The notes under the pieces were generated by a model, which saw only the letters and a list, made by a program, of their open reading frames with translations, was not told the origin of the DNA and did no database searches. Positions 9,276 through 40,479 of a DNA stretch of 64,000 nt are shown here, piece by piece. Positions within the stretch are counted from its first letter, which is position 1. Each line of letters starts with the position of its first letter. The position numbers and the translations under genes are program-made. Origin of the DNA: Beroe forskalii (lineage: Eukaryota > Ctenophora > Nuda > Beroida > Beroidae); the NCBI GenBank assembly GCA_011033025.1, contig WFMF01000092.1:62001-126000 (forward strand), written 5' to 3'.

Positions 9276-10154
9276 GATGTATTGGTTTACGCGTTAAATG
9301 AAAAATAAAATAAGATAAAATAAAATAAAAGTAGATACTAAAATAACAAAATGCGAAAAGTCTACTTTAAACTATGAGTGCTGCCGGAGTCGCTCAGCAA
9401 GAGCTGACAGCCCTGTCTGTGAGGAGACTCCGACGACTCCTACTTTAACTAACTAGGATTAAGACCTACAATTATAATAACCTAAGTTGCTAGTTTCTAC
9501 GAATTAATTTAATAGAAGATAATAAGTTTGGGATACTATTACCCAATAAGTATTAAAATTTGTTTTGGTGTTGAGTAAATGTAAATTTAAAGCAAGATAG
9601 AAAGTTGTTGTTTTTTCGCTGTGTAATTATAACGTGCCTGAGCGCCGCAGTTGCCAAAAATCGCTGATCTAACTAGACGCTGGGTGTCTCACCCTCATGG
9701 CCTGTGTGAAGTGAAAATGCTCATGTTATGGTGGGCCTAGTTGATTACGTGGCTATCGATGGCATTGTTCTAGAAGAATTTAGAATGTTTTAATTAGTGC
9801 ACTGCTTAGTGTGAGGTGGCTGTGTGTGACTTTGATGCAATGACCTGCGTTATCATCAAATGATAAGAATATGTAATCTCACTGATAACAAAGAAATAAT
9901 ATTTTAGTTATTATGTGTGATCATGAGCCGGAATATGTCGTGAACAGGCTGATAAAGAATAAAAAATGATGAATATTAAGATTAAGGTGAAAGGAAAAAC
10001 GTCCTAGTGCTGATTTGATAAGTTACTGTTGTTTGTCCGTTGGGTAGTTCTGTTCTAGTGATGTCGTCGGGCCTTAGTATCCTATCATGAGTAACTGTGG
10101 TATAAAAAAGTCAGGATTGAAACACGAAAAACAATTTACAATATATCAAGTAGC

Positions 10155-11851
10155 TCAATCAAAAGAGTTGTACAGAAGCTCGGCGTTAAGGAGCCACCTA
10201 AAGTCTCTGAATCTAGGTGACCCAGAGTGTGGTCTAGTGAGCTTACCAACGGAGCTCACTAGTCCTCTAACCACCAGCCGCTGAACATCAAAACACAAAT
10301 GAATCCCATTACCCTTCCTGTCCCATACAATATCAGGCTGTTCATTAATAATTAGAGCATGCGAGTCATAAAAGCTTAGATTAGGAACATGTTTTGAGAG
10401 GTTGTACATGTAGTCATTAAAAATGTCTATCTCATGGTTAAGCCATGCGCGGTTCTTTGCATGAGTTATGGTGTTGAAAACAAAGTTCGTCTCAGGATTA
10501 TTACTACAACATGACTTCAGTTTATTGTAGATTAAGTCCATGAGGGTATTAGCGGTTTTCCCATACCTGCTCAAATCGTTAACACCACACGACAAAATTA
10601 CAGTGCTCGCATACTCAAACTCGGCCTTAAAATCAAAAATATCGCAAAGTTGGTAACACTCTCGTTTTACACAAGTCACGCCAGGAATCTGTTCAAATAC
10701 TGTCTCAGGAGTCTGTTTAAGTATTGAGTCCGTCAAGAATAACACCCTAGTAGATCTACGTGGTGTGTGGGAGGCGGGTCGGGTGACGGGAGGAACTGGG
10801 GAGTGGGGTGGGGCAGCAGGGGTCGAGTCCAGAAGCTTCCTGAATGTGAGGGAGATGCGGGGTTCACGGATTGTACTGTCCCGGTCAATTCCATGACGCC
10901 AGAGTAGACAGAGCAGTTCTCCAAGGGGATGCAGTGCTCCTTGAGGGGTCCTTTGGTGTTGTACACTTTCAGTGCCCTCGTAGCGCCAAATGAGACAGTG
11001 AAGATGGTGCTGTGGGGGTCAATGGAGGGCTCGTCGTCATGATGGAGGGGTATGGAGACGTTACCGTCCTCGTACAACGTGCAGAGGCACGTGTACTGGT
11101 CCTTGGTCACCCCGAGCTCACTCAACTGTCCAAAGATCTTACTGAAAACTGGCAGATCGGGGTAGGGTTTGGGGTGGTGCGTAACTTTGCCATATCTGTA
11201 AGCCAATGTCCCAAAAAACGAGGTCTTACGTCCACCGGGGTGAGATTGGTTGAAGTCGATGGCCTGTTTCACTTCGTCAAAGGTAATGTCACTTAGAGTC
11301 ACAGGACACACTCTTACCGGACAGGCTTGCTCCGTGTTACCGTCAGTGCACTGCGTCTGGAGTGATGAGGGGCGTGTCTCAGAGGGGAGAGGTGGAGGAG
11401 GGTGTCTGCTGGCGAGGGTCTTGTCCGCTTCCTCCGCTCTCTGACACAGCTTGTTCGCTGCCTCGGTCGCCGTGTTGATAACACTCGTCAGACTGGCGGC
11501 GTTAACAGCCCGCTCCTTAAGCTCTTGCACTGCCGTCGTGGCTGTCTCGAGGGTGGAAGTCAATTTAGTGGTTAATTCCTTAATGTTATGCAGGGCATTA
11601 CTGAACTGAAGAGGAGTTGGATTGAGAAGGGAAGCTTTCAAGGCCTCTCTCTTTGCATCAACGTCACTGGCTTTATGCTTACTATAAGTATACGATGGTT
11701 CAGTGGTAAGCAGGTATTCGTATTCAAACTCAACTTGTGCGTCACTTAGTAGATGTAGTATCTGCAGACAAGTAGTTGTTGAGAACGTGTGTGAGGGATT
11801 CTGCTCTGTACTTTCACTCTGGGACTGCTCTGTTTGTAGGTCATCCGACAT
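10155..11851 (-). CDS. LINE ORF1: AlkB-like 2OG-Fe(II) oxygenase fused to SGNH hydrolase, one frameshift
   Basis: The ORF starts at ATG 11851. Residues 80-160 are alanine- and glutamate-rich and probably helical. An AlkB-like double-stranded beta-helix domain follows: IPLHHDDEP provides the iron-binding HxD, then a GATR segment typical of the family. The distal histidine (RHGID) and the arginine pair (PRISLTFR) lie in the next frame just downstream, so there is one 1-nt frameshift near 10905. The same frame runs on through a proline-rich linker without a stop into an SGNH domain: LTDSI (block I serine), CGVNDL (block III asparagine) and GNGIHL (block V histidine). AlkB proteins oxidatively remove alkyl groups from nucleic acids. 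SGNH esterase domains are known in ORF1 of CR1-group LINEs; an AlkB partner is unusual to my knowledge. Roles in retrotransposition are inference. The frameshift may be natural or a sequence error. Confidence 0.75.
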
Positions 11852-14824
11852 CGTCTATCAAGATGCAGTAGATTTGGCGCGCGCGGCGCTCAGTCACAAG
11901 AGAGATTTATTACACACGAATGGTAGAAAAGATTGCGAGAAGTGAATGGTAGAAAAGATTGCGAGAAGGTAATGTTTTTCGAATGTCCCCCAAATTTCTC
12001 GTCACAAATTTATGAGTTTCCTCTCGAGGATTTTCCCTTTTTATCCTCACTTTTATCCCCCTTTTCCAATCTACCATCTCTGATCGTGGCCTCACTTATG
12101 CAGTCTCTACAGTGAAGAAGTAAGCTTGACAGATTAGACTTTTCAGCTTATCCACTTCAACTGCCACCATCACATGTGTGCAGTAACTCAAAGGCTAAAA
12201 TCTAACTTATCCACAAAGTCTCTGATGCAGTTGGTGTCCATGTGGGTACAGATCAAGTACACCCACTCAACATCAATCAGACAAGCACAGCGGGGGAGGT
12301 AAATAAAGCGCCTGCACACGGGAATAATAGACAACAAGAATTGTGCGGGCAGGCGCAATTCTTGTTCTGAGGAAATTAACCCGATTAGGTACTCGGCGAC
12401 TTATTGGTTAGAACATGGTCCATGGATTATTATCATTTGTCCAACTGTCCAATGAGCGTGTGATGCTTTGGGTGTTCCGAAATATAATCTAAAATTCACA
12501 TATTATTTTAAAGCTGGATCCCGGTACCCGGTTAATTTCATCCACGAAACAACAATCACGTGATCTTGTTTCACGTGACGTCATCAGTTGGAAACTTGCC
12601 AATATCGTGGTGTCAGAGAGATTGAGGCAACTGAAAAGCACCTCTGTACCTAAGTATCGAGAGTGTGTAATGAGATTACCTGACTTTTTAATTGGTGACA
12701 GGACACCATCAGTTAGCTCAGCTAAGGGTACTATTTACTACGGTCCTTTTATCTCATAGGTTGCTCGCGAGAACCCTGCAATTTCATTGGCTCAGCCGTA
12801 ACCTGGCCACTTAATACAGTTTAGCTGGACGTTTCAAAGTGTATTTGTTTACAAAATTTTATTAATAGCTGTGGAGTGTATTTGTAGGCCGCAATCCGGT
12901 GTTAGAATGTCAGTGAACATCATTAGCCTCATCCAATGAGTGTCATTGTTAAAGTACCTTATAAGTTTCATTTTATTTTACAATCTCCTTGGAGAAGGTA
13001 TTCAATATTTAATAGCACTAATTAAATTCCTTTTCAGAACACACAGATTTTATAAAGGAGTATTTATAATTCGGAGAAATAATGCAGCTTATAAAAGGCA
13101 GGCTGTATAATCCGGTAATCGAGTGAATTATCGGTTTAAACCGCTTGTAAAGCACAAGTTTAATGGAAGTGTTTTTTGACTGAAAAAACTGAAGAGTAAA
13201 ATTTTTTACAGAGATAGAAACCTGAAAGATGGATTCAGGGATTTTGAGGAATCCATTATCCAAGGTTTTACATTATATAAAAGATTGTATATAAAGGTCG
13301 ATTTGATGACAATTTCTAAGTCCTACGGGTGAACTAATACGCCGCAGACATTAGTTAGTTGATTGCTTGCCAACTTACACCAACTACTCTGCGCCTTGTT
13401 ACCATGTCTTCAGTCTGTAAACTGTGTAACCTGATAGAATGGAGTTGAAGGTGCACGACTGGTAAATAGCAAGTTTAATAATTCTTGTTAGGGTTCTCGG
13501 GTCTATATCAATTAGCAGGTTCACTCGTCACATTCAGATCACCTGACTCAGTCAAATCACTCGCCAGAATCTAAAAACGTGCTCTAACTTCTAGTTTCAC
13601 TTTTCCATGATGCTAAGGGGCCATCTATAACTGACGATAGCATCTCACCAAATATTTAGTCCCCAGAATGGTCCCCAGTAGCAATCTCACTCACGCAAAA
13701 GTAGTTATTACGCTAAGGGTTCATCCGAGAACCAAGTCCGCATTTTATCGGCAGTATTTATCGTACCCAGTAGCAAAGGTAGTTACATTTCCCTGAAGTA
13801 AAAACCAACTTTTCCTTCATTAAATCTAGGCCTTAACTCCGAAACATGTGAGTAGTAACCAGATTGATAGGTGCGCAGGGCAAATAGGCAGTTCATGTGA
13901 TGACGTCATTATCATTTAGCAAAGTGGTACGTTAATAACGCTTCTATGGACGTTGAACTGTCTAATTTCACGCATAGCAAGGGGTGAGCTGGTTAGCTGG
14001 TTTTAAGAGCTGACAGAAAAGCATTGGTTTAACGGTGAGCGCCTGAAAGGACTTATTGCCCGCTGTGATCGACTAGCTCTAATAACTTTAATACTTTAAT
14101 TACTTTCTCGCTCTATACTCCCTTAATTGCTGCTTAACCTGCGAAAGTCCCTGATATATTGGTTCGAATTCCGGAGATCTAAACGATATTAGGAAAAACT
14201 TGTAAAATTTCGAGTCAGTATATTCCCGTTTAAATCCGACCCCACGCACTAAAAACAGGCGATTTAACGTCAGAAACTCACCACTTTGTGGTATGACAAT
14301 GACGTCATTCTAACCGCATCTTAATAATACGATGTACATAAACGGGGGTAGCAAGCGAGGCAGCTGTAAACTGCTTGATGTCTAGCATGCTCTAGACATG
14401 CCCAATATAATCAGTCTAGGAGATTGAGAGGGAGAGGGTTAGAGCAGTACCATTCAGTCTGACATACTGGAGTAGTTTATGAAGGAGCGCGAGAGGGGAA
14501 TATAATAGGGACGGTGAAACGCCACTTTTGGTCCGTGTTAAGTTCTGATACTAACCTCACTATACCTGTTATATTCTTGGTGTATCCCTGAATGTCAACT
14601 CTGTGGAAACAGCTCTTAGAACGTCTACTCTAGCGAGAAAGGGTCTAGCTATAGCCACTAGTTGGAAGTTGGTGTCACGTTGTACCATTTAACAGCATGG
14701 TAATAGCCTCACTCTCAAGTGCCATATCGGAGTGTAACGCAAAGGAGTTACCCAGTGACATTTGAGAGATCTAAGGCAAAGTTCAGGTGGTGGTGGTGAT
14801 TGGTGGTGAAAGTGCGACATTTGA

Positions 14825-23701: not shown

Positions 23702-25904
23702 TAAGGACGAATCAACATCCATCATAGTCATAAAAGTAGTAAATAGATGAAAAACTAAGTGAAATAATTAAAAAATTAATGTTCGAGTAGCACTGGCAGC
23801 AATTTAAATTCAATATTTGTAGTTAGATAACATTTGGTTTTCAGCAGCTATGGGGAATGCAATGGAACAGTTTATCCTTTTATAGTCTCACGAGAACATG
23901 AATTACTGCCATATTGTGTCAGTTGATTTGAACAACACCGAATCCATTGACCTGGGGCTATGGCCCACAACTAAATGAGGTCCCCTCACCAACTACGTAA
24001 TCAATTTCTGACAAATTTCCAGCTCCATCCTTTTGATAATTTATTGATTCGTAACATCCGAACCATCCTTATTCCCTGCTGCTTGTCCTACCATCATGAT
24101 TCATGCTGACAATTGGTTTCACTGGTCAGAGCTACTCATACGACTTTATGAACAGCCTTCCTTCGAATGATCGGGTGGAATTTGAAAAAGCTCATAATTT
24201 TACAATGATAACAGACCATCCGAAAGTTACCTATCAACAGTATGAACTATTTCAAATGTTTAACAATTAACGTTACTATAAATTGCAGTTTCATAAACCT
24301 TTCTCTTTATTACGTCTTATTAACTTAAGTGGGTTTAATTTGATATATAATTATTCATATTGTTTGTAATTGATCAGTTATCACATGTCATAATCCTGAT
24401 TCATACATAATATTTACTATTGTTCAGACTCTGGGACAAAAGCAGATCAGACCAATTTAATAAATTTTTGTAGATTCCATGGGTTTTTAACGTTTCTTTG
24501 TGCTTTTATGTAAAATTTTTAATGATCAGATCAAATTGAAATATTTGCTGTTATATTATATTATGATTGTTAAGATGTAAATAAAATTATTTATTTAGCT
24601 GTTAATAATATTTTGTAGGTTACATGGTATTCGCTATATTTAAGTGAAAGTGTCATTTCATATCAGATTGATCCTTACCAACGAACATCCGCCAAGAGCA
24701 GTAGAGCTACCTCATAAGACTAAGAGCATTGTTCAACTTCAACCGCCGTTTTGACTTTCGAGACTCTCCAGAAAATAGCACGGCAATTGTAGCTCAAGCT
24801 AGGTGCCAGATAAGGTTTCAGTTTTGATTCGGAAAGATGCTTTCGCTTGATCAATAATATTATTTGTTTAATTAAATATTTGTTGCCAAATTTTCAGGTG
24901 TTTGTCTCCCATATAGCACTGGCTGAGTGACGTCACGGACCTAAACCCAAATCTTTTTGCAAGCCTAAACCTAAGCTGAAGCATGATCCTATTCCGGAAC
25001 TTTTACCCTTAAAGTTGCTCTAAAAATGAAAAAAACCTTGGTTAGGCCTAGGGGAACCCCCTGATTAGGCCTAGGGGAACCTTTTAAGACAAAGTAAACA
25101 AAATCCACTATCCAGGCCTAACCATTACTACCAGTACCCTAACCATTTACCCTAACCTTAAAAGCTCTAGCTGCCCAGAGGCTAACAGTGACGTATTTAC
25201 CTAATGATCAGGAATACTTTCTTGTTATATATGGGAGACTTGACTGTTTTCTTACCAAACACAAACATCTGTTATTGTTGGAGTTAGAATGAAATGAAAT
25301 AACCGACCCTTATTTTAGCCATCAAATATTAGTTAATAGTTATCAAATATTGATGTTAAAAAGCTGATTCTCTTATCGTAATTAAATCATTATGTAATGT
25401 AGGTAGTAGGTGCTAGGTAGGTTCAGGACTCAAAGACTTTATTATGTGACCTTAAAATTAAAGTGATATGAGATTCTTATTTCTAGCTTTAGTGCTCAGT
25501 ACTTCAGTATTTCTTCAGTTAACTTTAATAAGAGTTTAAGATACATGGAAATGAAGATCATACCAATTAGCATTATTAAGTCAGCAATGACATGATCAAT
25601 TTAAAAGTGATAAAATTTGTCCACCGTAGTCAAATCATGATCATGATCATATTGTTTCTGATTCAGTATAATTGTACTCGTACCTGATAAGAGCAAATAT
25701 TACAATTATTATTCCATTAAAGGAAGATTTAAAGGCTCGGATATCAGTAACACGTTTATTCGTCTAGAATATGCACTATTTGTTAGCCAATATTTAGTTT
25801 ACATCTACAATAAATATTGATGAAACAATCGATTTTATTTTGTAACAGAACGCGATGGTTTCACTTTGGTTTGTTGATTAGCGTAATACTAATTGGATCC
25901 AGAT
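23702..25904. other. Intergenic AT-rich sequence, no gene seen
   Basis: No ORF or exon is convincing. Around 25040-25160 there are short direct repeats about GGCCTAGGGGAACC and several CCCTAACC-like words. Confidence 0.4.
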
Positions 25905-27245
25905 TAAACCGGCGCTTGGCAGCCGCTTATGAGTCCTTGTTTGGCGCTAATCACCGCTTGGTAGGCGCTTATCAGGGCTTGATGGTCACTTACCAGTGCT
26001 TACGGCTTTATGGTTGGCGCTAATGAGCGCTTGGTTGGCGTTAATAAGTGCTTGGAAGGGGCTGATCAGTGTTTGACAGGCGCTAATCAGCGCTGGGTAG
26101 GCGCTAGTCAGCGCTTGGCAGGCGCTAATCAGCGTTTGATAGGCGCTTATCAGTGCTTTAAAGGCACTAATCAGCGCTTGGTAGGTGCTAATCAGCGCTC
26201 GCTAGGCCCTATTTCCCTAATCAGCGCTGATTAGCGTCTCTCAAGCGCTGATTAGCGCCTCTCAAGCGCTGATTAGCACCTCTCAAGCTCTGATTAGCGC
26301 CTCTCAAGCGCTGATTAGCGCCTCTCAAGCGCTGATTAGTGCCTCTCAAGCGCTTGGCAGCAGGCAGGCGCTTATCAGCGCTCGGCAGGCGCTGATTAGC
26401 GCCTCAAGCGCTTATCAGCGCTGGCGCTGATTAGCGCTTGATCAGCGCTGAATCAGCGCCTCAGCGCTGATTGGCGCTAATCAGCGCTTGATCGGCGCTC
26501 AAGCGAATCAGCGCCTTGGCAGGCAGCTAAATAGGCACAGCGTTTTGCAGTCGCTAATCAGCATCTGGTAGGCGCTAATCAGCGCTTGGCAGGTGCAATC
26601 AGCACTTGGCAGGCGGAAATCAGCGCTTGGCAGGCGCTAATCAGCGCTGGGTAGGCGCTAGTCAGCGCTGGGCAGGCGCTAATCAGCGTTTGATAGGCGC
26701 TTATCAGTGCTTTAAAGGCACTAATCAGCGCTTGGTAGGTGCTAATCAGCGCTCGCTAGGCCCTAATCAGCGCTTCATAGGCCCTTATCAGCGTTTTGCA
26801 GGCGCTAATCAGCGCTTTGCAGGCCCTAATCAGCGCCTGGTAGGCGCTAATCAGCGCTTGGTAGGCGCCTAATCAGCGCTGATAGGCGCTAATCAGCGTT
26901 GATTAGCGCCTCAGCGCTAATTAGCGCCTCAGCGCTGATTAGGCGCTAATCAGCGCTTGGCAAGCGCTAATCAGCGCTTGGTAGGCGCTAATCAGCGCTT
27001 GGTAGGCGCTAATCAGCGCTTGGCAGGCGCTAATCAGCGCTTGGTAGGCGCTAATCAGCGCTTGGTAGGCGCTAATCAGCGCTTGAGAGGCGCTAATCAG
27101 CGCTTGATAGGCACTAAGAGGCGCTTGGCAGGCGCTTTGCTGTCGCTAATCAGCGTCTGGTAGGCGCTAATCAGCGCTTGGCAGGTGCAATCAGCACTTG
27201 GCAGGCGGAAATCAACACAGGGCAGGCGCTAAATCAGCGCTTGGA
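25905..27245 (+). repeat. 21-bp satellite array with strand flips and internal duplications
   Basis: The unit is 21 bp with core GCGCTAATCAGCGCTTGG. GCGCT and AGCGC within each unit are complementary, so each unit can form a small hairpin. Orientation flips to the reverse complement at about 26222-26470 and again at about 26895-26945. A block at 26064-26214 is repeated nearly exactly at 26627-26780, and one at 26552-26630 recurs at 27134-27215, so the array also grew by block duplication. A few units recur at 27470-27530 after a unique insert. Because the unit is seven codons, frames stay open (a GANQRLV heptad), but I do not regard this as a protein. Confidence 0.9.
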
Positions 27246-27530
27246 GTCTGGATAATTCGAATATAGGGGGAGGGAGAATTCTGGCCAATTGGGACGTTTG
27301 TGGACATGGGGGGGGGAGGGGGGTGGGAGGTCTGCACAAATGCAAACCTTAGCAGCTTAAGGAAATTTGATCGATTTGACGGTACGGTTAATTTCACAGC
27401 TAAGTCGTAAAATTTCGGGCCTAAAATTATGATCCTTGGCAAAAAACGACGTCCTGGGGAGGAGGATTTCTGGCGCTAATCAGCGCTTGGGAGGCTCTTA
27501 AGTCTTATCAGCGCTTGGAAGGCTCTAAGG

Positions 27531-28922
27531 TCCAGTCAGACTCAGCGTCCTTTATGGATTGCCCCTAAACACATCTAGCCCTTTGTGGGTTAGAATCAGG
27601 ATTTTAGGGTCAGGATATTTTTAGGGTTCTCATGTGTCAGGATAGTTAACCTATTTTCAAACAAATAAAACTAGCATTTTAAAACAACTGGATGAATTTA
27701 ACTCTAGTTATAACAATGAATTGTCGCCAGATGGAGTTAAGGGAAAGAGCAACGCTGGTTCTTCAAAACTGACAAATGTTTTTTAACATCATAAAAACTA
27801 TTATTTCGAATTAATTAACAGCTTTCGATAAATTGATTTACTATATAAGCAACTACATAAGAAATTGATTTACCGTACCCGAAATTCTTGTACAGTAAAT
27901 CAATTGCTTACCAAAATTTTCTAGAAGAAAATTCAGGTAGGTTCCGTACATTGCAATTTGTTGAATTCAGATACAGTTTCTGAGCTAAATAGCTAATTTC
28001 ATTAGCTTCTCCACGAAACCGATGACTTTCGATTTAGAATATTACCTCCCATAACTAATGATTAATGACTCAAAATGCTAAAATGGATGTATAATTGTAA
28101 CTTGAGAACATTCACTTGCTACACATCTTGATCTATCATGCATTCAGCACATATTATGACCTTATGACAATCATTCATGGCCATAGAAATAGAATTTTAT
28201 CACTGAAAAACTTGACAGATAGAGATGGAAATGCAACGAAACATTCAGAATAATAAACTAAAATCATAAGTTTGACTTGCTTTTTATAGCTCATCGATGC
28301 AGCTTTTTCCATAGCACATAATTTTTACATTAAATAGTATAATAAACAAAATGATAATCTTTGGCAATAAAACTTTGGAACTTGAAAAGTACCCCACTGT
28401 GTTGTTTTTACAACTTTATAGTCCAGTTTTTACAAGTTTGTAGTCCAGTCAGCCCTGGTTAAGTTCTACAGTCCTCAAAATGTGGATGGTATTTCTACAG
28501 TCTTCACTTCAGTGATAAACTAATGTCATCAACTCATTATAATGGCACACAGAATCCTTTCCGTCCGCATCTCACCGCCAGATCCCATTTCAGTAGTAGT
28601 TCAGTAGCCCAGGAGTAGCCCTGCTCGGTTATTCGGCTTAATAAATCACACTTTTGAGGGGCACCTACATTTTCGTTTCAGAGGCGTTTTAGTAAGGAAT
28701 TTTAAAGAATAACATGAGATATGATGAGGATTCTCATTTACTTTTCAAAGTAAAGGTAAAAGGTAGCTACATTATTTGAAATTCATCTGGGTACATGGGG
28801 AATGTTTATAAAATGAATTTAAGTTATGAAATTTTCAACTATTTACAATTTTTAAGGAAATATTGGACATTTTACTAAATTATCTGGTACAAATAAGCAA
28901 TAAAATTCAGCTACATAAATTT
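27531..28922. other. Intergenic, downstream of LRRC51; no gene seen
   Basis: AT-rich sequence that should hold the LRRC51 3' UTR on the minus strand. I see no other gene or repeat array. Confidence 0.4.
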
Positions 28923-31900
28923 TCAGTCCTCGGTTTTTGCCACTTTCTTACTCATTTTCATCTTCTTACTGCAAAGGGTCTTCCAGTTCTCAGCATCTCT
29001 TCGGTCTTGTTTGGTGACAGAGCTGAAATCGAGCTGCTTCAAGCAGGGCAAAGTCCCGAGGACAAACTGGCGATACCCCTCCAAAGCTTCCAACGGGTTC
29101 CCTGAAAACAAAGGTGGTGAATTAGCCGTACAAACATCTAAAATGTGGGGTTTGTTTGGGATAAACAGAAAATAACTGCACTTAAAAACGAAAATAGAAA
29201 AGCAATAAGCATAGAAACCCTCAAGAGTTTTGGCCACTTTTCGCCATATTTCTCATTTCAAACGCGTCTAAAACTCTTTGAGGATCACAGAAATGAAACG
29301 TTGAATTAAAACTTATCTGATTTCATGAATCGGATCGTTGAATAAGAGTCGCATGATTACAATTACAATTGTTAGTACCTACTCACTTTATTTGATTATC
29401 ATAAGTAACTTGCGTAGATTGATAGCTCCTCATAGATATAAAATTAAAATCGTCTTCTTTCCCATGTAAGGTTAGAGTTCGAAGGTTGGGCAAGGCTGAC
29501 AGTCGTTTAATCTCGTTGAGGGACATCAACTGGTTGCCATGTAGATACAGCGTTGTAAGGCTCTTAAATTCCAGCAAAGTCTGAAATACGCACTCGATTT
29601 AGGGCCAAAAAGGGCAATATTTTGAACTTGTGTGGATTTTATTGATTCACATTATCGTCAGTTAATTGCATAGTTTAATTATCTCATCAATTAATTTGTA
29701 TGCAAGAATAGAAAATGTCAAAACAAACGCGCGTTTTTGAAGAAAAAAGGACGCGCGCTGTTACACTGATGAGTGGCCATGAAAATTTCTAACAGACAAA
29801 ACGCGTCGCGGCATCCAAATATAAAACTGCCGATGTGTGACCGATTCGCTTACATTCACTTGAAATGGCAATTTAGGGAATTTCAAAATATCAACACGCC
29901 ACTGAGGTCTGAGGACACTCAGCTGGAGGTCAATTTTGACAGAGGTTATTTCAGTTTTGTAAAATGTTTTGCAGTCAACATGGACCATGGTGAAAATCGC
30001 CAATTTGGCGGTTATAACCGACTTTCCTGATTCAGGACGGATATTAAGTATCTGAGATTGACTAGTCATTGTGAAGTGCAGTGCGCCGGGTACTTGTGAG
30101 GAAAGTATTTGAGTTACGACTTACGTGCAGACCAAATAATTTTCTGAAGGAGCAATCTGAAATTAGGAAAATCACCATGGCAACGCTGAGCCACTATATC
30201 CCTGTCACATGCTCATTTCCAACTGCCCGCTTTGCTATTTGCTCAAAACTAATAAACTTTGCTAATCGTTTGAACGTTTTGTTGAAAATGAAGATGTCAA
30301 AGACTTTGAAGAAAATGAAGAAATGTTTCAGGAGTAAGAAGAGTGATCGTGTCTATGTCTATGATGAGGAGGTGGAAGCGTATAGGAGGTCTAAGTTTGC
30401 GAGGTTCTACGGGGCGTTGGGGTTCATGCATGTGCCGCGGAGAGAGAAGTATCAGCCTGAGGTTAGGGAGTCTCCACTCCCACTCCCCTCCCGCAGCAAC
30501 AGTGTGGAGGGGGAGGAGTGGGAGGTGGAGGGGGTGGAAGTCCTCACTCTCGAGGGGGACTTGCCACCCCGAACAGAGGAGGGGGAGCAGTGGGATCCCC
30601 TCCCTGTCATAATAGCATGGGAGCACCCAGAAGAACAGATGCCTGTTTTTCTGGACTTTCACTATTTTGACAGGGGTTACTAGTTAGGTTTAGGCTTAGT
30701 TTCATTAGTTTTCATGTTCAAATCAACTTCACAAATTCAGATATTTATGACGACCACACGTGGTCTGATGTCGTTTGAATTTGTTTGGGTTGATTTGAAC
30801 CTGTGCATATTTTTCATGATTATCTAGTTTTATAGTTTTTGTACATAGTTCGACTTGACTGGAACGAAATACAAACATTTATGACGACCAATTGGTCTGA
30901 TGTCGTTTGGTTTTGTTCGAGAAAAGTTGAACTTTTATGCATTAGGTATTTCATATCGTAGTTAGATATCCGTAAACTCTGTTCAACTTGACTCGATCAA
31001 AATTCAAATATTTATGACGACCTAAAGGTCTGATGTCGTTTGATTTTGTGAGAGAAAAGTTGAACCTGGCATATCAATTTGATTGTATACGTTCTTACTA
31101 ACCATACTTTACAGCATACTGGTAAGTATTAACCATAGTTTCAGGGTACTGATGTCCCACTTCAGGTAACCAACTTGCAAGACTCTCATCAGGTAACAAC
31201 ATTTAGTTTTTCAGAATTTTGACATATTTTTCTGTAATATTCTAGTCAAGTGATCAATTTAATTGCAGGAATGTCATTGAATCGTTTTATAATATAAAGT
31301 TCTTCATTATCAACTCTTGACTTATACCAGTTTCATTTCAGGAGTCTACAAGATCCAGACGACCAGCGACACTCAGAGTTTACAAGACGACGAAGAAAGG
31401 AAGAAGAAAGAAGACATCGATTTCAATTTATCAATCATTTCCATCAATTTTTCTGATCACATAAAGCATCACTTTTTAAGAATTTCTAAGGCCATTTCAT
31501 GAACGACTATCACTGTGTTCTGAACATTTGTCAGGGGGTAATCTGATGAAAGGGGTAAAGTTGACAAGGGCAGGGGTCAGTGGGTATTCGAAAAGGTCGG
31601 TTCTGCGCTAACAAGAATCACTTTCGGTTATTAGGACAGGGCTCAGTGGGTCTCTCGATAGGGTCGATTCTGCGCTGATAGGGCAATATTACGTATCCAG
31701 GATTTGAGATGAAGGCATGTAAAATATTTTCAGAGAAGGTTTGCAGATTTCGACAGTTGAATGGCAAGTTAGACCTAATAAGCTATGATAAGAAATTTTC
31801 TTAAGTTGGTGACTATGTAAGGAACTTTTTCAGGGTATGCAACGCATAGTCTGCATACCCTCTGGTTTCGTCACAGAGGCTTCGACTAGAGAACTGACAA

Positions 31901-34760
31901 CTGCATGCGTCGGCACGTCGTCAATTTCTAAGAACAAGATAAGACCAGAGGAAAGGAATCGTGAAGCGTCTGAATGTGAGAATAAGACGGGCGATCCTAG
32001 CGCGAGTGCAAGGGGCCGCAAATTGAAAGAAAAACTGGTGGGGAATATGGAAATTTTCTAAAGCCATAGAGTTGCAAGCATAATATCCAACACAGGCGAA
32101 ATTTTTGAAGATATTAGATTTTTCATTGGAATTTTTAGGCATTTTCAAGGAATCTACCAAAAAACTGAGGGAAAATGTCCTCCCTGCCCCCAAGGAATTA
32201 CAGGCCTGCCAGTGCAGTATACCACCGAAAGAAAGAATTTGGAGCCCAACAAGCCATTTTGAAATTTTCGATTTGGTGACCTAAAACACAGCCGTTTATT
32301 ATTAGTGTGCGTGTTATGAACCAATACTTATACCCCCACAGCTTTAGCGAACGTGGCATATAGTGTCGGGAAGGACCAACAATAAACCCTGAAAATAGCG
32401 TCATTACCAGGGGAGTTGTAACTTATTGATTGCCTACTTGCACAATGGAGATAAATCGTGAAATTGCCACAAAACGTGCATAAACATGCAACACATTGCA
32501 CAATAAAGCAATAAGATCCAATTAATCGAAAGTTTTGAAAGGCTTCAATAAAAGAACAGATGGGTATTCTTAGTCGATGCAATGCTTCCTGAAGGATGTA
32601 AATAAATAGAACTGCCCATTATTGCTATCATCAAAAGAAAAAGAATATCAATGCTTACAAACAGAGAGGTAGTTTGGAAGCTTAGCCGGATAAAGCCACA
32701 AACTGAGCCGAAACCCGGAATTTTTTGTAGAATGTAGAGTGATAGAAAATGTGGTGGAATGAACTTGGATCTTTTTTAAAGTCCATCCGACCTTAAGTTT
32801 TTCTAAAAAACGTCTCAAATAGTCGGAAAATTTAAATTTTAAGTGCAAATGCTGAAATTCTTCCTCATAAAGGGTCAAAATGGGCCGTCAAAATGTCTCA
32901 TTTAGGTCTTGAAAGAAAAAAAGGGTGATTTCGGGGTTTTAACGTCACTAATGTCTCACTAGATCTTGCAGGAATAACCTGGAAATGTTTTAATAAAGTA
33001 ATAACTACTCACATCGTCGAGAATGTGGATGTCGTTGAACGAGAAGTCGAGCCAACTGATAGCCACAGGGTTGACAACCAGTGCTGTCATGGTTGTCATG
33101 AGGTCGTGTAGCTCGTGGATTGCGTTGTTGTTGTACCTCACAGCTGTCACCTCTTCCGTGTACCCCTCCTGAGGTGTGGAATCCTGCTCCCCCTTATTAA
33201 ACAGGGTATTATCACGTTTATAAACTTATAAACGTGCATTATAAACCTCCCCTGCTCCCCCTTATTTACGGGTATTATCAACCTCCCCTGCTCCCCCTTA
33301 TTTACGGGTATTATCAACCTCCCCTGCTCCCCCTTATTTGCGGGTATTATCAACCTCCCCTGCTCCCCCTTATTTACGGGTATTATCACGTTTATAAACT
33401 TATAAACGTGCATTATAAACCTCCCCTGCTCCCCCTTATTTACGGGTATTATCAACCTCCCCTGCTCCCCCTTATTTACGGGTATTATCAACCTCCCCTG
33501 CTCCCCTTATTTTATATCAACCTCCCCTGCTCCCCCTTATTTACGGGTATTATCACGTTTATAAACTTATAAACGTGCATTATAAACCTCCCCTGCTCCC
33601 CCTTATTTACGGGTATTATCAACCTCCCCTGCTCCCCCTTATTTACGGGTATTATCAACCTCCCCTGCTCCCCCTTATTTACGGGTATTATCACGTTTAT
33701 AAACTTATAAACGTGCATTATAAACCTCCCGTCGCAAAAATTACAGTGTAATAATCATTGATATATAGATATATCACAGTAGAAAATTACAGTAGAAAAT
33801 CTTAGTATCAAATTTGCTTATATGAAGAAGCACTCGAAAATGGGCTTCGGTTTTAATTAACAGCTATGTACCTACCTATACAGTATACAGTAGTTTTCAA
33901 TGGGTGATATATCGATAATTTTATCCACGAGAGGGTAATAATATACGTCGGCCAGCCACAACTCCTCTTTTGGACTAAAATAACCGGAATTCATTACAAT
34001 TTCCAGGATTCACCTAAATTTGGTCAAAATGTGACAAACATGATGTTACTTAGCTGATGGAGTTTACCTTCAGTTTAGTTCCTTTCCTTGGCTCCTCCTC
34101 TAGAGAATCTGTGAGGGATTTAAATCAGTAAATTACTAAATAACCTCAAAGAAACATCATTGAATATCAAAGAAACATCATAGAAGTACTGAAGTAAAGA
34201 AATATTTCCGATGTTTCAACTTCAAACAGTCGACCGTCAAGTTCATTCTTGTAGCATTTCAAAACTAATTCGAGCGGTTTTCGAAAGCTTTTTCGTCATA
34301 TCAACGTATGGCTGTATGACATGCAGTAAATCATTCATTTTGAATGAGTTACTTGTCAAAAAGTCAAATGCTACAATACAAGCTGGTATTTTGTAACACC
34401 TTATGAGCTTTATCAATGGCATGTCGAAATTAAAATGCGTTATTAGCAAGGTTTGATGTTTGCAGGATACACCGATACAAGGTCCCATTGCTGTCATTGC
34501 AGATTTTAGGGCCTTTAAAAAAGTAAATGATGAGAAACTGGGATGTAACATAAGAAAATATCTTATTTCTGAAAATTAAGAACTCCGAAAATTAAAAAAT
34601 ATTCTGCTTACTTTTAATTTCATCTGGTTTAGATAATTCAGTTTTCGAATGTCATAATGCGTATTCAGGGTCTGAGAATTACCCTACCTGTGAGTGTGGC
34701 AATGTTTTTGAAGGAGAAGTCCAATGGTGGAGCAACGTTGTTGAGAGTTTTTATTGACAT
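28923..34760 (-). CDS. LRRC51: Leucine-rich repeat-containing protein 51, five coding exons
   Basis: Exons on the minus strand: 34760-34688, 34108-34068, 33168-33013, 29580-29463 and 29101-28923, giving 188 codons, close to the 192-residue human protein. Hallmarks in order: APPLDFSFKNI at the N-terminus (human PPLDYSFRSI), EEEPRKGTKL, AISWLDFSFNDI (first repeat, human AWIDLSFNDL), LTTLYLHGNQL, LRTLTLHGNP, EGYRQFVLGTL and LDFSSVTKQDR. Phases 1, 0, 0 and 1 all match. The exon 4 donor reads GG where GT is expected (29462-29461), with the remaining context AAAG normal. An acceptor lies 6 nt before the ATG (AG at 34768-34767), so an upstream exon or trans-splicing is likely. In vertebrates LRRC51 is a small LRR protein linked to the LRTOMT locus; its function is poorly known. 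Intron 3 (3.4 kb) hosts an antisense ORF and hairpin cluster. Confidence 0.9.
30177..30683 (+). CDS. Orphan ORF, 168 codons, nested in LRRC51 intron 3 on the opposite strand
   Basis: ATG 30177 is the first in its frame and has a strong context (ACCATGG). The product has a short hydrophobic N-terminal part, a lysine-rich basic block (SKTLKKMKKCFRSKK, from about residue 40), then FYGALGFMHVPRREKYQPEV, then a proline- and glutamate-rich acidic C-terminal half ending in FLDFHYFDRGY. No known domain is recognised. The stop lies 33 nt before the first of three hairpins, so one plus-strand transcript may carry both. A splice-acceptor-like TTTCATTTCAG ends at 31341, which may start a further exon (31342 onward). 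A divergent 103-codon frame (30069-29761) begins about 100 nt away on the other strand and is unrecognised. Coding status rests on length, composition and start context only. Confidence 0.4.
   Translation: MATLSHYIPVTCSFPTARFAICSKLINFANRLNVLLKMKMSKTLKKMKKCFRSKKSDRVYVYDEEVEAYRRSKFARFYGALGFMHVPRREKYQPEVRESPLPLPSRSNSVEGEEWEVEGVEVLTLEGDLPPRTEEGEQWDPLPVIIAWEHPEEQMPVFLDFHYFDRGY
30716..30800 (+). ncRNA. Candidate microRNA-like precursor hairpin 1 (85 nt)
   Basis: The basal stem GTTCAAATCAAC pairs perfectly with the last 12 nt. A second helix ACAAATTCA/TGAATTTGT and an apical helix around GACCACACGTGGTC complete an imperfect hairpin. The 3' arm carries GGTCTGATGTCGTTTG, identical in all three copies. 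It has no similarity to a microRNA I can name. See the cluster finding for the comparison. Confidence 0.5.
30848..30932 (+). ncRNA. Candidate microRNA-like precursor hairpin 2 (85 nt)
   Basis: Same length and architecture as hairpin 1, starting 132 nt after it. The basal stem GTTCGACTT/AAGTTGAAC contains a G:U pair that exists only if the plus strand is transcribed, and GAAA/TTTT adds another. The apical loop differs (GACCAATTGGTC) but stays self-complementary. Confidence 0.5.
30981..31065 (+). ncRNA. Candidate microRNA-like precursor hairpin 3 (85 nt)
   Basis: Starts 133 nt after hairpin 2. The basal stem is GTTCAACTT/AAGTTGAAC, with CAAAAT/ATTTTG in the middle and GACC-TAAA-GGTC at the tip. 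The 3'-arm 16-mer GGTCTGATGTCGTTTG is again unchanged. Confidence 0.5.
31570..31690 (+). repeat. Diverged tandem duplication, about 65-bp period
   Basis: Two units share CAGTGGGT, AGGTCG/GGGTCG and TTCTGCGCT in the same order (31570-31613 and 31634-31683). It lies inside LRRC51 intron 3. No gene is visible in the rest of that intron (31690-33012). Confidence 0.5.
33184..33730. repeat. 36-bp minisatellite with interspersed palindromes in LRRC51 intron 2
   Basis: Units of 36 bp (CCTCCCCTGCTCCCCCTTAT then TTACGGGTATTATCAA) occur in blocks of two to four. Blocks are separated by four copies of a palindrome with 11-bp arms (CACGTTTATAA) and a 2-nt spacer, at 33213-33236, 33387-33410, 33554-33577 and 33692-33715. 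The array stops 15 nt short of the exon 3 acceptor (exon begins 33168 on the minus strand). Frames open through it on both strands are by-products of the 36-bp period. Confidence 0.9.
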
Positions 34761-35301
34761 TCTGACCTGAGAAATTAACAAATTATTCTTTTAAATCCTT
34801 AGATCCTGAAATCACTTAATTTGGTAACGCCAGGTTAGGTTTTTAGTTCTAAGGAATGAGTGTTGAATAAATTACCCATTCATTGTTCCTTGCCCTTCTG
34901 ATAGCATCAATTTCATCAAATTTCATTGAATGTGAGAGAAAATTAAAAACTAGATTAATGTGAAAAATCGTGTTAGAAATAACAGATATATTAATTCAAA
35001 TGAAATTCCATATCCCACTGCAGTCCCACCATACCATAAATCACAAATTAATCTGAAATAAATCCACCATAGCATAACTAATTTTATATTACAAACAGGT
35101 TTGAAATAGAAATAGTTTAAATACTGTACCTAGTTACATCTACAAAACATACATCTGACAAATAATGACGAAAAAATTAATTTGGGATCATGCAGATTGC
35201 AAAGTAAACAATTAACATTATTTGCCTTTAATATTCAGTTCTTACTTCTTAATTTAAAGTCAGTGAACAATCACTGCAAAATTTCACTTATAATTACTCA
35301 C

Positions 35302-36317
35302 ATCGACATACTTTGCTCTGAAAAACGATTTAAAACCTTCTAAAAGCACAGCTAAGGACTCCTTCTGTGTCACTGATGAGTTCAAACGCCCCATTTTGAT
35401 CCCCAAATCCGCAAGATTATTCAACTGTACTTCCTCACTGTCCATACCAGGTGCCCCGGATATTATCCTGAGATCTCTGGGAACAAAATACCGCTCTTTA
35501 TTCTTACCAAACAGCACATTATTGAGAGTATCCCCAGCCCCTTCAGGAGACAACTTCAATATATGCCTATAAAACACGAGGACTGCATCCTCAGCCAGTC
35601 AGAGGTGGTGTAAACAAACCCTGGCTCTGATCCAGGAAAGAGCCTCTCCACAACTTCCTCATCTTCGAGAGTGAGAGCTACAGACTGATAAGGTTCTGCA
35701 TGGTAATACCCTGCATCCTTGTTATACCGGTAATCTATCTTGATGAGGTTCCGATGTCGGAGTGTGGAGACAACCTCCTCCTTGCTTTGGGTTGTGGTGT
35801 GAGTTATGAGGAACTGGTGGGGCTGGAGAGAGACATCACGCTGCAGAACTTGGTACTGATTAGCAGGGATACACACAACCACCACATCACATTGCTCAAC
35901 AACCAGGCTATTGTTGGTGCACACAGTAACTCCAGCCTTTGCCAGGTCATTGAGTTTATCAGGCTGAAATGTTGAAACAGTTATGTCTTGTGGTATGCAA
36001 GCCACATGGTGTAGCAGGGTAGAAATAATGTGTCGAGCTAGGCGACCTCCTCCTATAAATCCCACTGACACCCTATTCTTGGATGTTGTGCCAGGTCTCA
36101 GAACCTCAGCTGATGTGGCATAGTGAGTTATTGTGTTGAGCATGCCAACAAGGTATGTTGTGTGAGCAGCTGCATGGAGCAACAGTTCAAAGGAGCGCTT
36201 CCTCAAGGGCAGGAGGGCTTGTTCTGATTCATTGAGACTTGAGTTGAATTGGAGAGAGGGCAGACCATGGGTTATGTCACTTTCTGCTGCTACTCTTATC
36301 ATGCTGAGAGTATTCAT
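35302..36317 (-). CDS. NOXRED1: NOXRED1-like NADP-dependent oxidoreductase domain protein (one frameshift)
   Basis: ATG at 36317. Residues about 80-110 form a dinucleotide-binding Rossmann start (VSVGFIGGGRLARHIISTLL, GxGxxA-type), followed by ISVSTFQPDKL-like and DVVVVCIPANQY strands, as in pyrroline-5-carboxylate reductase relatives. The C-terminal part (WLEDAVLVFYRHIL, then LLEGFKSFFRAKYVD) matches the helical end of the vertebrate protein. About 339 codons, against 359 in human. The frame is broken once near 35598 (one base missing after TGGCT), which may be a sequence error or an inactivating change. The coding part is a single exon ending at a consensus donor (GAT|GTGAGT at 35302). No stop follows in frame before that donor, so the transcript continues; the nearest in-phase acceptor is that of LRRC51 at 34766. 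The substrate is unknown. Confidence 0.75.
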
Positions 36318-36874
36318 GATTTAGCAAAAAATGATACTTTTTACTGAAAATCTTTCATAAACTCAAAAGAAAAGATGCTCAGCAAAGCCCCCAAGCTTAT
36401 CATAATCCCAGAATCCAGGCATTAAGGCATCTGCAAAAAATCAGTCTTAAGTATTGTTACCTGATATCTAACCAAAACTACCTCAGCTAGCATGATGGCT
36501 TCTTGCGGATATTCAACAGTAAGTTATCTGTGTGGATTGTAACACTGGTAACAGGAATATTTTTATTTCCTGGTTTGGTTCACCAGTTTTGGAGTGCTAG
36601 TTGTTTGATACCATTCACATTTCTGTTGCTTTTGTTGATACAATGTTCCTGTAGAAGGAAATGTGGGAGACAGTTCATCTGTTGGAGAGTGGGGGTTTAG
36701 CTGGGCGGTTAGCTAAACTGGAGCTTTGGATGGCTACCAAGGCAGCAGAGGCAAACAAGCCAGCAGTGGGAACAGGAGAGAGCAGCAGGCACGTCAGTGG
36801 TGAGTCCAGGGGAGGGGAGGAGATGGCGGATAATGAGGATGCTGTGAAGGGGAGGGAGCAGCATGTGACTCTTA

Positions 36875-36882
36875 CCTTCAGA
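36875..36882. repeat. Target site duplication, left (CCTTCAGA)
   Basis: This is identical to 39183-39190 and abuts the GGCTAAAAAATGGG terminus of the foldback element. Confidence 0.85.
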
Positions 36883-39182
36883 GGCTAAAAAATGGGTGGA
36901 ATCAACTCCGCGGCGGACCCGCTGCGGACCCGGTGGACCCGCTGCGGGTCCGCCGCGGACTCCACTAAAGTCCACCAGGAAAATTTTTTGGTGGACTTTG
37001 GTGGACCCGCAGCGGACTTTTCGAAACTCCGCCGCGGAGTGGTGGGTCCGCTGCTATGGTCCGCTCGGGCTCCGCCCGGCGCACTGGTGGACAGTCCACC
37101 GAAAAAGTCCACCTAAAAAGTCCACCAGGGAAAAGTCCGCCGTGGAATGGAGTCCACCGTGGAGTTTTTGTCCACCGAGACTCCACCAGCGGACTCCACC
37201 AGCGGACTTTTGGTCCACCAGCGGAGTCCACAGGTGGAGTCCACCAGCGGAGTCCACCGGTGGACAAAAACTCCACCAGCGGAGTCCACAGGTGGAGTCC
37301 ACCAGCGGAGTCCACCGGTGGACAAAAACTCCACCAGCGGAGTCCTCTCGCGGACTCCACCGGACGAGTCCGACTCCACTTTTGATCTGATTGGAATTTT
37401 TTGATGCGGTAAAAAAGTATTCAATCAATATGAATTTAACATGTGCTTAAAAATACTTTAACGAGGTGCTGCGTAACAGCGCCAAGTGAGTTGTGTATTT
37501 GAAGGCCCAACGGGCCTGCTAGTCTTTATATATAACTAGAAAGGCCCGTTGGGCCTGCTAGATAATACAGGACCAAATAATAAGCTCTCAAAAAAGTTTA
37601 TGAAGGAGCAGAATTTACCATTATTCGTTGGTTACTTTTAGTCATGCTGGACCGTGCAAGTTTTGATCATTATAATTTGCTTTTATGATGAATTTAAATC
37701 TGAAAATTAAAACCGATGATCGTACTCATACTGAACGTTGAATCAAAGCATTGATTTACGCCAAGAGCAGTATTCAATATCGCAATGAGCTATGCCCAAA
37801 TTCGATTCAGTTTGATTTTGATTTTGTTCAATCTTAAACTGCTGTAAATTCACATTTTTCCGTTACCATCAACTAGCATTGATTTAAATCGACCGACGTC
37901 TGTCACAAATATTTGGAGAGATGCTAACGGAAATAGCCTCCACGATGCCATCCATACCCGTTCTCTATTTTCAGATCTTGAATTTCAAATGAAAAACAGT
38001 AAACACGTCGTTCTTTCAGACGCTAAACCGCAGCAATATACAACGTATCAGAAAGCACTCGCATAGAACTGATCATAATCTGCACGTGCAGAATATCTGT
38101 ATCCATAGCAACGGCGCCGACTTAGCCCAGCTTTAGCCTTCGTTTCTCTTGATATTTTCTTGGCAAGCTCAGATTTAATTGTATACGGAAGCACAGACAA
38201 ACATTATTCACGTGTGACTTCACTTTTATATAAGATTTGGTAAGAGTATGGATTTTGTGTCGGCGTGTGTGTGGATTATTGTGTCGGCATCATGGATAAG
38301 AATGGGGAAACCGTGTGTATGGGCACTGCGTCGGCGTGTGTGGATTTTGTGTCAGCGTGTGTATGGGTAATTGTGTCGGCATTATAGAATAGAATGGGAA
38401 AACCATGTATGGGCACTGTGTCGATGTGTGTATGGATTTGTGTCGGTATGCACGTGCAGATAGTGGGAAATGCTTGCGTTGCTATGGTAATATGAGAAGG
38501 GTGTGAATTTCATTTCTGGCTTTGTTGATTTTGTTGCGCTACTCCACTGAACAACTTTGGTTCTGATTCGAATTTTTCGATGCGGTAAACAGTTTTTTTT
38601 TTTTAATTAATTTGAACTGTTTAGGTTCTAAATTGGCGAGTGTGATGCTGCGTAGCAGCGCCGAACGGGCCTGCTACTGCTAGTAATTAGTAAATTGAGA
38701 AATTGGAACAAAATTTGTACATAAACTGAGCGGAGTCCATTGGAGGACTCCACCCGGCGGAATCCACTGAGCGGAGTCCACTGGCGGAGTCGAGTCCACT
38801 GTGAGTCGAGTCCACTGGTGGAGTGGAGTCCACCAGTGGACTCCACTGGTGGAGTCCGCCAGTGGACTCGACCAGTGGACTCCTCGCCGGTGGAGTCCAC
38901 TGACTCAAGCGGACTTACCTCCACAATTATTTTTTTCCCTGGTGGACTTTTTTTGGTGGACTTTTTCGGTGGACTGTTCACCAGTGCGCGTATGGAGCCC
39001 GAGCGGACCAAGAGCGGACCCACCACTCCGCGGCGGAGTTTCGAAAAAGTCCGCTATAGGGTCCACCAAAGTCCACCAAAAAATTCCTGGTGGACTTTAG
39101 TGGAGTCCGCGGCGGACCCGCAGCGGGTCCACCGGGTCCGCAGCGGGTCCGCCGCGGAGTTGAGTCCACCCATTTTTTAGCC
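36883..39182. mobile_element. Foldback DNA transposon, 2.3 kb, long GC-rich inverted repeats
   Basis: Both ends begin GGCTAAAAAATGGGTGGA and continue as inverted repeats of about 500 bp (36883-37380 and 38700-39182), largely tandem variants of CCACCAGCGGAGT. An 8-bp duplication (CCTTCAGA) flanks it exactly. The middle (37390-38690) is AT-rich and has no transposase. Long tandem-repeat termini with 8-bp duplications are the layout of foldback elements such as the sea urchin TU and some P- or hAT-related families; which one applies cannot be decided here. Many overlapping ORFs in the repeats are artefacts of their composition. Confidence 0.85.
37385..38690 (+). repeat. Interior of the foldback element: direct repeats with Helitron-like ends
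   Basis: TCTGATT(G/C)GAATTTTT with GATGCGGTAAA occurs at 37385 and 38552. GCTGCGTARCAGCGCC and CGGGCCTGCTA follow at 37469-37521 and 38648-38680. A GC hairpin GGCCC-AAC-GGGCC followed two bases later by CTAG lies at 37504-37522 and again in partner form at 37543-37561. The rest (37570-38540) holds no gene. Confidence 0.4.
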
Positions 39183-39190
39183 CCTTCAGA
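39183..39190. repeat. Target site duplication, right (CCTTCAGA)
   Basis: Matches 36875-36882. Confidence 0.85.
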
Positions 39191-39700
39191 GATGAGGACA
39201 CACCCCAGGCAGTTCAGAGCGGTTCATTTCTCATTACGAGCTGGTGAGGGATATAAACCTGGAGAGGGGTGTTCGGGTGTGGACAAAGCCGTCTTATCGT
39301 GCTCTGATGCTGCAAATGGCATTGAGTGTCCAGCAGCAGATTACTTAAAACAAGAAGCCTCAAGCCAGAATGCTAAACCCATGTGTGAAGAATGATGAAC
39401 AGATACTGGAGAGACTAAGGGCAAAGTAATTCAAAATGCAGCAGTTAAGTTACACATCATTGCCTTTGAGACCGCTTCTCAGAAAGAGGGAGAACCATTC
39501 GGGGAATACATGGTCAGACTGCAGAATTTTTCGAGAAACAGGGCCATTTGGTGTTGCAGTTTCTGAATAGAGCTTGAGACAGGGATGTTAGAGAAGCACT
39601 GGATGAAGAACAATACAACAATGAAGAGCTATGAAGAAATCAGCTGAAGCAGTAGTGAACACAAAGAAAGCTTCAAGAGCTACATGAAAGGTAAGTGGTC

Positions 39701-40479
39701 CAGTGCATATATCTGCATCAGGGAGTATCAATAGCTTCCACCCCAATCTTAAGCGAGGAGCGGTCAAGGAAACTAGACATATTATGATATAAGAGAAGGC
39801 AAAAGTAATGACTCCACTTGTATAATTGGTTCTGTCAGTAGATTCCTCTGGCAGGGGTGAGTGTGTGATGGTATGCTGACCCATTCATTGTGGCTGCTAG
39901 ATCCAGCAGCTTAACCTCAAACCTGCAAGACCAAGACAGCAAGATATGTTGCTTGCTTCATGGTAGCACTGCAGGAGAGTGGCAGTAAAGTCACAAAGAA
40001 ATCATTTGACTCAGCACATGTTTGCAAGGTAGGGCCAGACAGGAACCAGGCCGACTGCAAGGAAGCAAGGTATTAGAAGAAGGTAGAAAGAAAGAATGGA
40101 GCATCAGCCTCAACAACTGGCTTGATGGTTATAAAATGACAATCCATTCACTTCAAAAAATTTTACTGAGAGCATGAGGGAGGATGCTATTCAACATTAC
40201 TAAATGTATGTTAAATGAATTTCAAATAATAATAAAATTATTTTCTTACCATCTTACTGTGCACAACATGAATCAGTTTCGGATCGAAAGTGCTACATGC
40301 AAATGTTGACCATTTCACTCATAAAACCATTTGTAAATGTTCATAATGAATACCAAAATTTGCATGGATACAGTTTGTGGCATAAGATAAGACAGTGTCT
40401 GTAAAAATTTAAAGCATTTTTATCCAAAAATTGTTCACTTTGCGCCTACCGCGATTAACCTCATGTCAGACAGGCAACG
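39701..40479. other. Intergenic, no gene seen
   Basis: No convincing ORF, exon or repeat is visible. Confidence 0.4.

Follow-up and report, generated by a model that had tools for sequence, protein, structure and literature searches.

The stretch analysed here, hereafter the window, comprises 64,000 nt of a Beroe forskalii contig. A TBLASTN search with a human LRRC51 sequence as the query gave three matches on the minus strand (32995-33132, E 1e-6; 29461-29577, E 8e-9; 28974-29108, E 1e-10), and an acceptor-like TTTCAG for the minus-strand gene ends at 29581. An earlier reading made from the letters alone (the sequence-only reading) had placed a cluster of three plus-strand hairpins inside an intron of this gene. 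The hairpins do lie in an LRRC51 intron (table 1), but the gene lies on the minus strand and the plus-strand hairpins are antisense to it. Because of this orientation, plus-strand hairpins need a transcript of their own and cannot be derived from LRRC51 pre-mRNA. Candidate polyadenylation signals (AATAAA) for a plus-strand transcript are present at 32381, 32502, 32547, 32601, and 32992.

The array is preceded on the plus strand by a putative open reading frame (ORF) that ends in TAG 32 nt ahead of copy 1 and overlaps a fourth strong hairpin. GC content by codon position in this ORF is coding-like (0.52, 0.38, and 0.61), and the codon score leaves the frames unseparated. A Pfam search of the 202-codon frame gave no match at E 0.05, and a pattern search of viral contigs for relatives of the ORF returned 22 stretches, none of which is related. 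The start codon is in the context ACCATGG, the C-terminal half is acidic by eye, and the ORF as a whole is nested antisense in the LRRC51 intron.

Table 1. Features in and around the hairpin array (window coordinates)
Feature	Position	Strand	Remarks
Hairpin copy 1	30716..30800	+	85 nt, 35 pairs; MFE -34.8 kcal/mol (85 nt)
Hairpin copy 2	30848..30932	+	85 nt, 33 pairs; MFE -32.9
Hairpin copy 3	30981..31065	+	85 nt, 31 pairs; MFE -27.2
Conserved 3' upper arm, copy 1; candidate 3p small-RNA region	30762..30784	+	23 nt
Conserved 3' upper arm, copy 2	30894..30916	+	
Conserved 3' upper arm, copy 3	31027..31049	+	
Invariant 5' 13-mer ATTTATGACGACC (copies 1, 2, 3)	30743..30755, 30877-30889, 31010-31022	+	
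LRRC51 intron holding the hairpins on the opposite strand	29581..32994, approximate, donor not placed	-	tblastn matches and TTTCAG acceptor
Putative ORF	30177..30683	+	168 codons plus stop, within a 202-codon stop-to-stop frame
Fourth strong hairpin	30601..30676	+	39 nt upstream of copy 1; MFE -40.7, MFEI 1.16

All three 85-nt hairpins proposed in the sequence-only reading are present at the starts it gave (30716, 30848, and 30981), in steps of 132 and 133 nt that leave gaps of 47 and 48 nt between the copies, and the 16-mer of the 3' arm and the 5'-arm sequence that it took to be invariant are indeed identical throughout. By global alignment, pairwise identity of the hairpins is 75, 76, and 86%. 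The exact 16-mer occurs three times in the window, and allowing up to three mismatches adds one further match; four such matches were reached by 0 of 100 shuffles. A covariance model trained on the three copies and then searched against the 64 kb (E up to 10, default filters) recovered only these same three loci, with scores of 87-107 bits on the plus strand and 28-37 bits on the minus strand.

Folded individually, each of the three segments forms a single stem-loop of 31-35 pairs that is more stable than expected from shuffled sequences. On the plus strand the z scores of copies 1-3 are -5.57 (computed on 30716-30803, i.e., with three extra bases), -5.65, and -5.01, with none of 200 shuffles as stable in each case, whereas on the minus strand they are -4.70, -3.45, and -4.52, with 0, 1, and 0 of 200 shuffles as stable. 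The plus-strand folds are the more stable by 4.4 to 12.4 kcal/mol, and the MFEI of the three copies is 0.94-1.12. The helix above the internal loop has 4-5 bp and the tip 4-6 nt, and the invariant bases span both sides of this apical internal loop as well as the mini-stem. The 4-nt TGAT bulge that had been drawn in the 3' arm is not part of the best fold, being 1.3-1.5 kcal/mol worse than a structure with small near-symmetric internal loops; a wholly open internal loop is 2.3 kcal/mol less stable than the minimum-energy fold. The predicted differences between these versions of the internal loop are too small to choose among them.

With regard to the strand of origin, for which the plus strand had been claimed, both the fold energies and the mismatches lean to the plus strand; however, the lean of the mismatches is weak, and stable folds are predicted for the minus strand as well. 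When the arms are aligned in a strand-neutral way, the transition mismatches of the three copies read on the plus strand as six G:U and no A:C. Because three of these six are one invariant core pair common to all copies, this evidence is weak. Counting the core pair once gives 4 G:U to 0 A:C, with P 0.06 against 1:1 and P 0.017 against controls, namely 40 other hairpins of the window (G:U to A:C 23 to 45) that include repeated, non-independent minisatellite units and are not centred on 1:1. Inclusion of the fourth hairpin, which contributes three G:U and one A:C in the same type of alignment, gives 7 to 1 (P 0.035 against 1:1, P 0.005 against the same controls). The mismatch count thus weakly favors a plus-strand RNA. 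Copy 2 was said to have two G:U pairs, and it does in the strand-neutral alignment; in the minimum-energy fold it has four, one of them the shared core pair.

We then compared the hairpins with the sequences between and beyond them. Spacer identity ranges from 45 to 63% over six comparisons, of which five are distinct (one sequence pair was compared twice), and shuffled sequences give approximately 51-53%. The spacers after copies 1 and 3 are 63% identical, and only 2 of 200 shuffles were as good; among the remaining comparisons one is marginal (13 of 200 shuffles as good) and the others are ordinary (45, 50 or 54, and 166 of 200). Because the hairpins are alike while most spacer pairs resemble shuffles, the duplications seem to be old and the hairpins to have been retained since. 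This bears on the idea that the array is a functionless remnant of a satellite or of a hairpin-shaped mobile element, which would fit the equal spacing of the copies and the repeat-rich surroundings with their long arrays and the inverted-repeat pair at 36869/39078. Homogenization of a satellite should include the spacers, yet most spacer pairs align no better than shuffled sequences do, only three copies are present in 64 kb, and within the window the unit as a whole is neither homogeneous nor amplified in the manner of an ordinary satellite. A mobile element is opposed by the finding that, among the 25 longest of 118 inverted pairs in 24000-40000, none forms terminal repeats of at least 24 nt flanking the array. 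We consider an origin of this kind very unlikely.

Retention of the fold was assessed by simulation, in which random substitutions were placed outside the core (n = 2000 per test) and the resulting stability was compared with that of the real copy; the number of substitutions was 12, the count observed for copy 2 against copy 3, or was set by us to 20 or 10 for pairs with copy 1. The stability of the real copies 1 and 2 was matched by 0-5 of 2000 simulations in seven tests, and that of the real copy 3 by 56 and 13 of 2000 in two tests. Under this model, the proposal that the fold of the hairpin family has been kept beyond chance is supported. The compensatory changes described in the sequence-only reading also exist, with double compensations at pairs 7/79 and 9/77 (within-copy numbering) between copy 1 and copies 2 and 3 and at one tip pair. 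In copy 1, an apparent further compensation (pair 21/64) depends on the alignment and was dropped. Under random changes in the lower stem the probability of at least two double compensations is 0.105 and that of keeping at least 12 of 14 pairs is 0.012, and in a shuffled-partner control on the alignment 15 of 500 trials equalled the observed covariation. Given the random P of 0.105, which is not significant, and the outcome of the shuffled-partner control, the covariation is real but weak evidence when taken alone. Overall, the hairpins form a genuine family that is probably functional.

Matched changes could also arise without selection on RNA if template switching between the arms, or DNA palindromes as such, maintained the inverted repeats. 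As described in PMC8794818, template switching can create and maintain hairpins and yield matched changes, and other palindromes and minisatellites abound in the window. Once the threefold core pair is reduced to a single count, the strand signal is weak (4 to 0, P 0.06), which is likewise compatible with a process at the DNA level. However, such a process predicts no strand lean at all, arms homogenized in this way would tend to lose the internal loop and the common mismatches, both of which persist in all three copies, and the spacers are far more diverged than the hairpins. Maintenance by DNA-level events is therefore distinctly unlikely in our estimation.

On a hand-gapped structural alignment of the three copies, which are paralogues and include no orthologues, invariant columns make up 21 of 23 positions in the 3' upper arm and 20 of 26 in the 5' upper arm; the tip has one such column out of 6 and the basal stem 18 out of 32. 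The upper arms differ from the tip and basal stem combined (Fisher P 0.001, for regions picked after the alignment was seen), and the 3' arm and the 5' upper arm do not differ significantly (P 0.25). Slow upper arms together with a fast tip and basal stem approximate the saddle profile known from microRNA precursors. PMC4556696 regards a loop that evolves faster than the arms, which is what we find among these three paralogues, as the classic mark of constraint on hairpins that act in trans. The conserved block extends nearly to the 4-6-nt tip, which implies either an unusually small loop or a position of the loop-side GACC/GGTC outside the mature strands. A duplex positioned by its distance from the base would leave the GACC/GGTC beside the tip in the loop.

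Our best, although tentative, explanation is that the array represents a family of plus-strand RNAs kept by selection, most probably as microRNA-like precursors. Tandem duplication of a unit of approximately 132 bp would have given rise to the three hairpins, which would have been kept folded as the spacers diverged, and a plus-strand transcript that is antisense to and distinct from LRRC51 would carry all three. A cut in the basal stem approximately 12-16 nt in from the base would release an apical part of approximately 50-60 nt, and this part would in turn yield a duplex of approximately 22 nt with a 3p strand beginning within GGTCTGATG..., for example TGATGTCGTTTG.... Because the same 3p seed would be present in all three copies, we propose that they would act on the same targets. 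Transcription, processing, Argonaute loading, and targets of the hairpins are steps that we infer. If the hairpins are processed, they would constitute a lineage-specific microRNA family that followed a tandem duplication and in which one seed is common to all members and the 3' end varies.

For animal microRNAs, Table 1 of PMC12594335 gives as limits a duplex of 20-26 nt with 2-nt 3' overhangs, at most seven mismatches, and no asymmetric bulge of more than 3 nt, and asks for at least 10 reads on the duplex with 75% precision. In their minimum-energy folds, all four hairpins accommodate duplexes within the structural limits of this source that leave a loop of at least 8 nt (11, 51, 38, and 36 placements). 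Copy 3 is borderline, with 6-7 unpaired positions in the placements listed, and the fold with the TGAT bulge would violate the bulge limit if the bulge fell inside the duplex. The same structural filter is passed by 110 clusters in the window (both strands, 64 kb), five from the array and 105 outside it, and so the filter carries little weight and structure alone cannot mark these hairpins as microRNAs.

A search of the whole window against Rfam found no family at the gathering score, and the hairpins thus match no microRNA family catalogued there. Within 491 bases that include the array, eight matches with E up to 10 fall below threshold, all of them by a wide margin. The best is to MIR1435, a plant family; it lies on the minus strand at 30906-31006, scores 31.9 bits against a cut-off of 94, and bridges the 3' arm of copy 2 and the 5' arm of copy 3. 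By eye, no CNNC motif lies just downstream of the hairpins. Full-text literature searches with 10-12-nt pieces of the core returned no such hairpin or microRNA family as judged by title or abstract start, those combining LRRC51 with intron and microRNA returned nothing related by title, and a search for paralogous microRNA precursors found none.

In comparison with clustered animal microRNA families made up of tandem paralogous precursors, the array is similar in having stem-loops of 31-35 pairs approximately 132 nt apart, with slow upper arms and a variable but largely paired tip and basal stem. Unlike such families, it has a tip loop of 4-6 nt, is conserved up to the tip, and has no Rfam match at gathering score. 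The microRNA-like family proposed in the sequence-only reading is partly supported: the hairpin family itself, the retained fold, the plus-strand lean, the conservation profile, the duplex placements, and the presence of a fourth hairpin alongside are in its favor, whereas the weak covariation and the unspecific structure count against it.

The main rival to microRNA-like precursors is a set of tandem protein-binding stem-loops, located in a long noncoding RNA or behind the putative small upstream ORF, in its 3' UTR. The invariant apical module, an internal loop capped by GACC/GGUC, would then be the recognition site, with the stems presenting the module and its repetition raising avidity. Invariance on both sides of the internal loop and in the mini-stem is directly accounted for in this way, and copy 1 follows the stop codon of the 168-codon frame at the short distance given above. 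That ORF is only putative, however, and has no Pfam match; moreover, conservation of the 3' arm reaches beyond the internal loop, and no Rfam cis-regulatory family matches at cut-off. The Rfam model of the Pestivirus 3' UTR reaches 21 of 37 bits in copy 1, which we read as chance. We regard protein-binding stem-loops as possible but somewhat unlikely.

It is unlikely, but conceivable, that the array instead contains an undescribed structured RNA module that is repeated three times on drifting stems, is read by a protein, and is part of an antisense transcript inside LRRC51. The module would correspond to an invariant 29-nt apical motif (5' ATTTATGACGACC, 3' GGTCTGATGTCGTTTG) in which the internal loop could form tandem G.A pairs. 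In roX RNA the roX box is found in the 3' arm, and RNAs of this type carry their stem-loops in a stable transcript bound by a helicase complex. PMC6451107 describes this RNA of Drosophila dosage compensation as a series of stem-loops that are joined by single-stranded linkers and have a conserved element, an architecture shared by the array. The copies described here look like direct tandem duplicates, and no roX-type helicase or chromatin link is known for the array. With ATGA in the 5' half of the core and TGAT in the 3' half, tandem G.A pairs of the SECIS or kink-turn type are conceivable, but the helix above the motif has only 4-5 bp. SECIS elements have a long helix II with an apical AA and are preceded by a selenoprotein ORF. 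We rejected a SECIS because of the 4-5-bp helix, the TAG at the end of the upstream ORF, and the lack of any Rfam SECIS match up to E 10. If the hairpins are not processed, they would represent a recurring RNA module that has a sharply delimited invariant core and lends itself to protein pull-down.

The fourth hairpin, which the sequence-only reading had missed, has a z score of -6.15 in the interval 30590-30679 (60 shuffles), and its distance from copy 1 resembles the spacing between the copies. We rejected it as a family member, its local alignment to the copies being no better than that of shuffles. A purine/pyrimidine-rich hairpin at approximately 30471-30531 was set aside: none of the plus-strand 90-nt windows centred there passes z -3, one minus-strand window (30470) has z -3.05, and its Rfam microRNA hits are sub-threshold, the best scoring 23.9 of 77 bits. 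Matches to the core pattern in one viral and one bacterial contig were also rejected as relatives, because hairpin flanks are absent by eye and approximately one to a few matches are expected by chance, an expectation estimated rather than computed for 20 fixed bases with a variable gap.

A tRNA search found none, and the CpG observed/expected ratio is 0.74, which together with the genes present suggests invertebrate DNA. Elsewhere in the window, 119-nt arms at 36869-36987 and 39078-39196 are 92% complementary, lie 2.1 kb apart, and enclose minisatellite-like inverted repeats; the pair looks like a foldback-type DNA transposon. A long intronless Vps36 frame with EAP30 and Vps36_ESCRT-II domains extends from 61991 to 63109 and is possibly a retrocopy or an intron-poor gene. 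Endonuclease/reverse-transcriptase ORFs at 5541-9293 and 49804-53431, on opposite strands and with near-identical C-terminal stretches, are probably recent LINE copies. Minus-strand ORFs at 10158-11854 encode a 2OG-Fe(II) oxygenase domain (E 2.5e-10) and give a GDSL-type match below the cut-off (E 0.02); they are perhaps carried by a mobile element.
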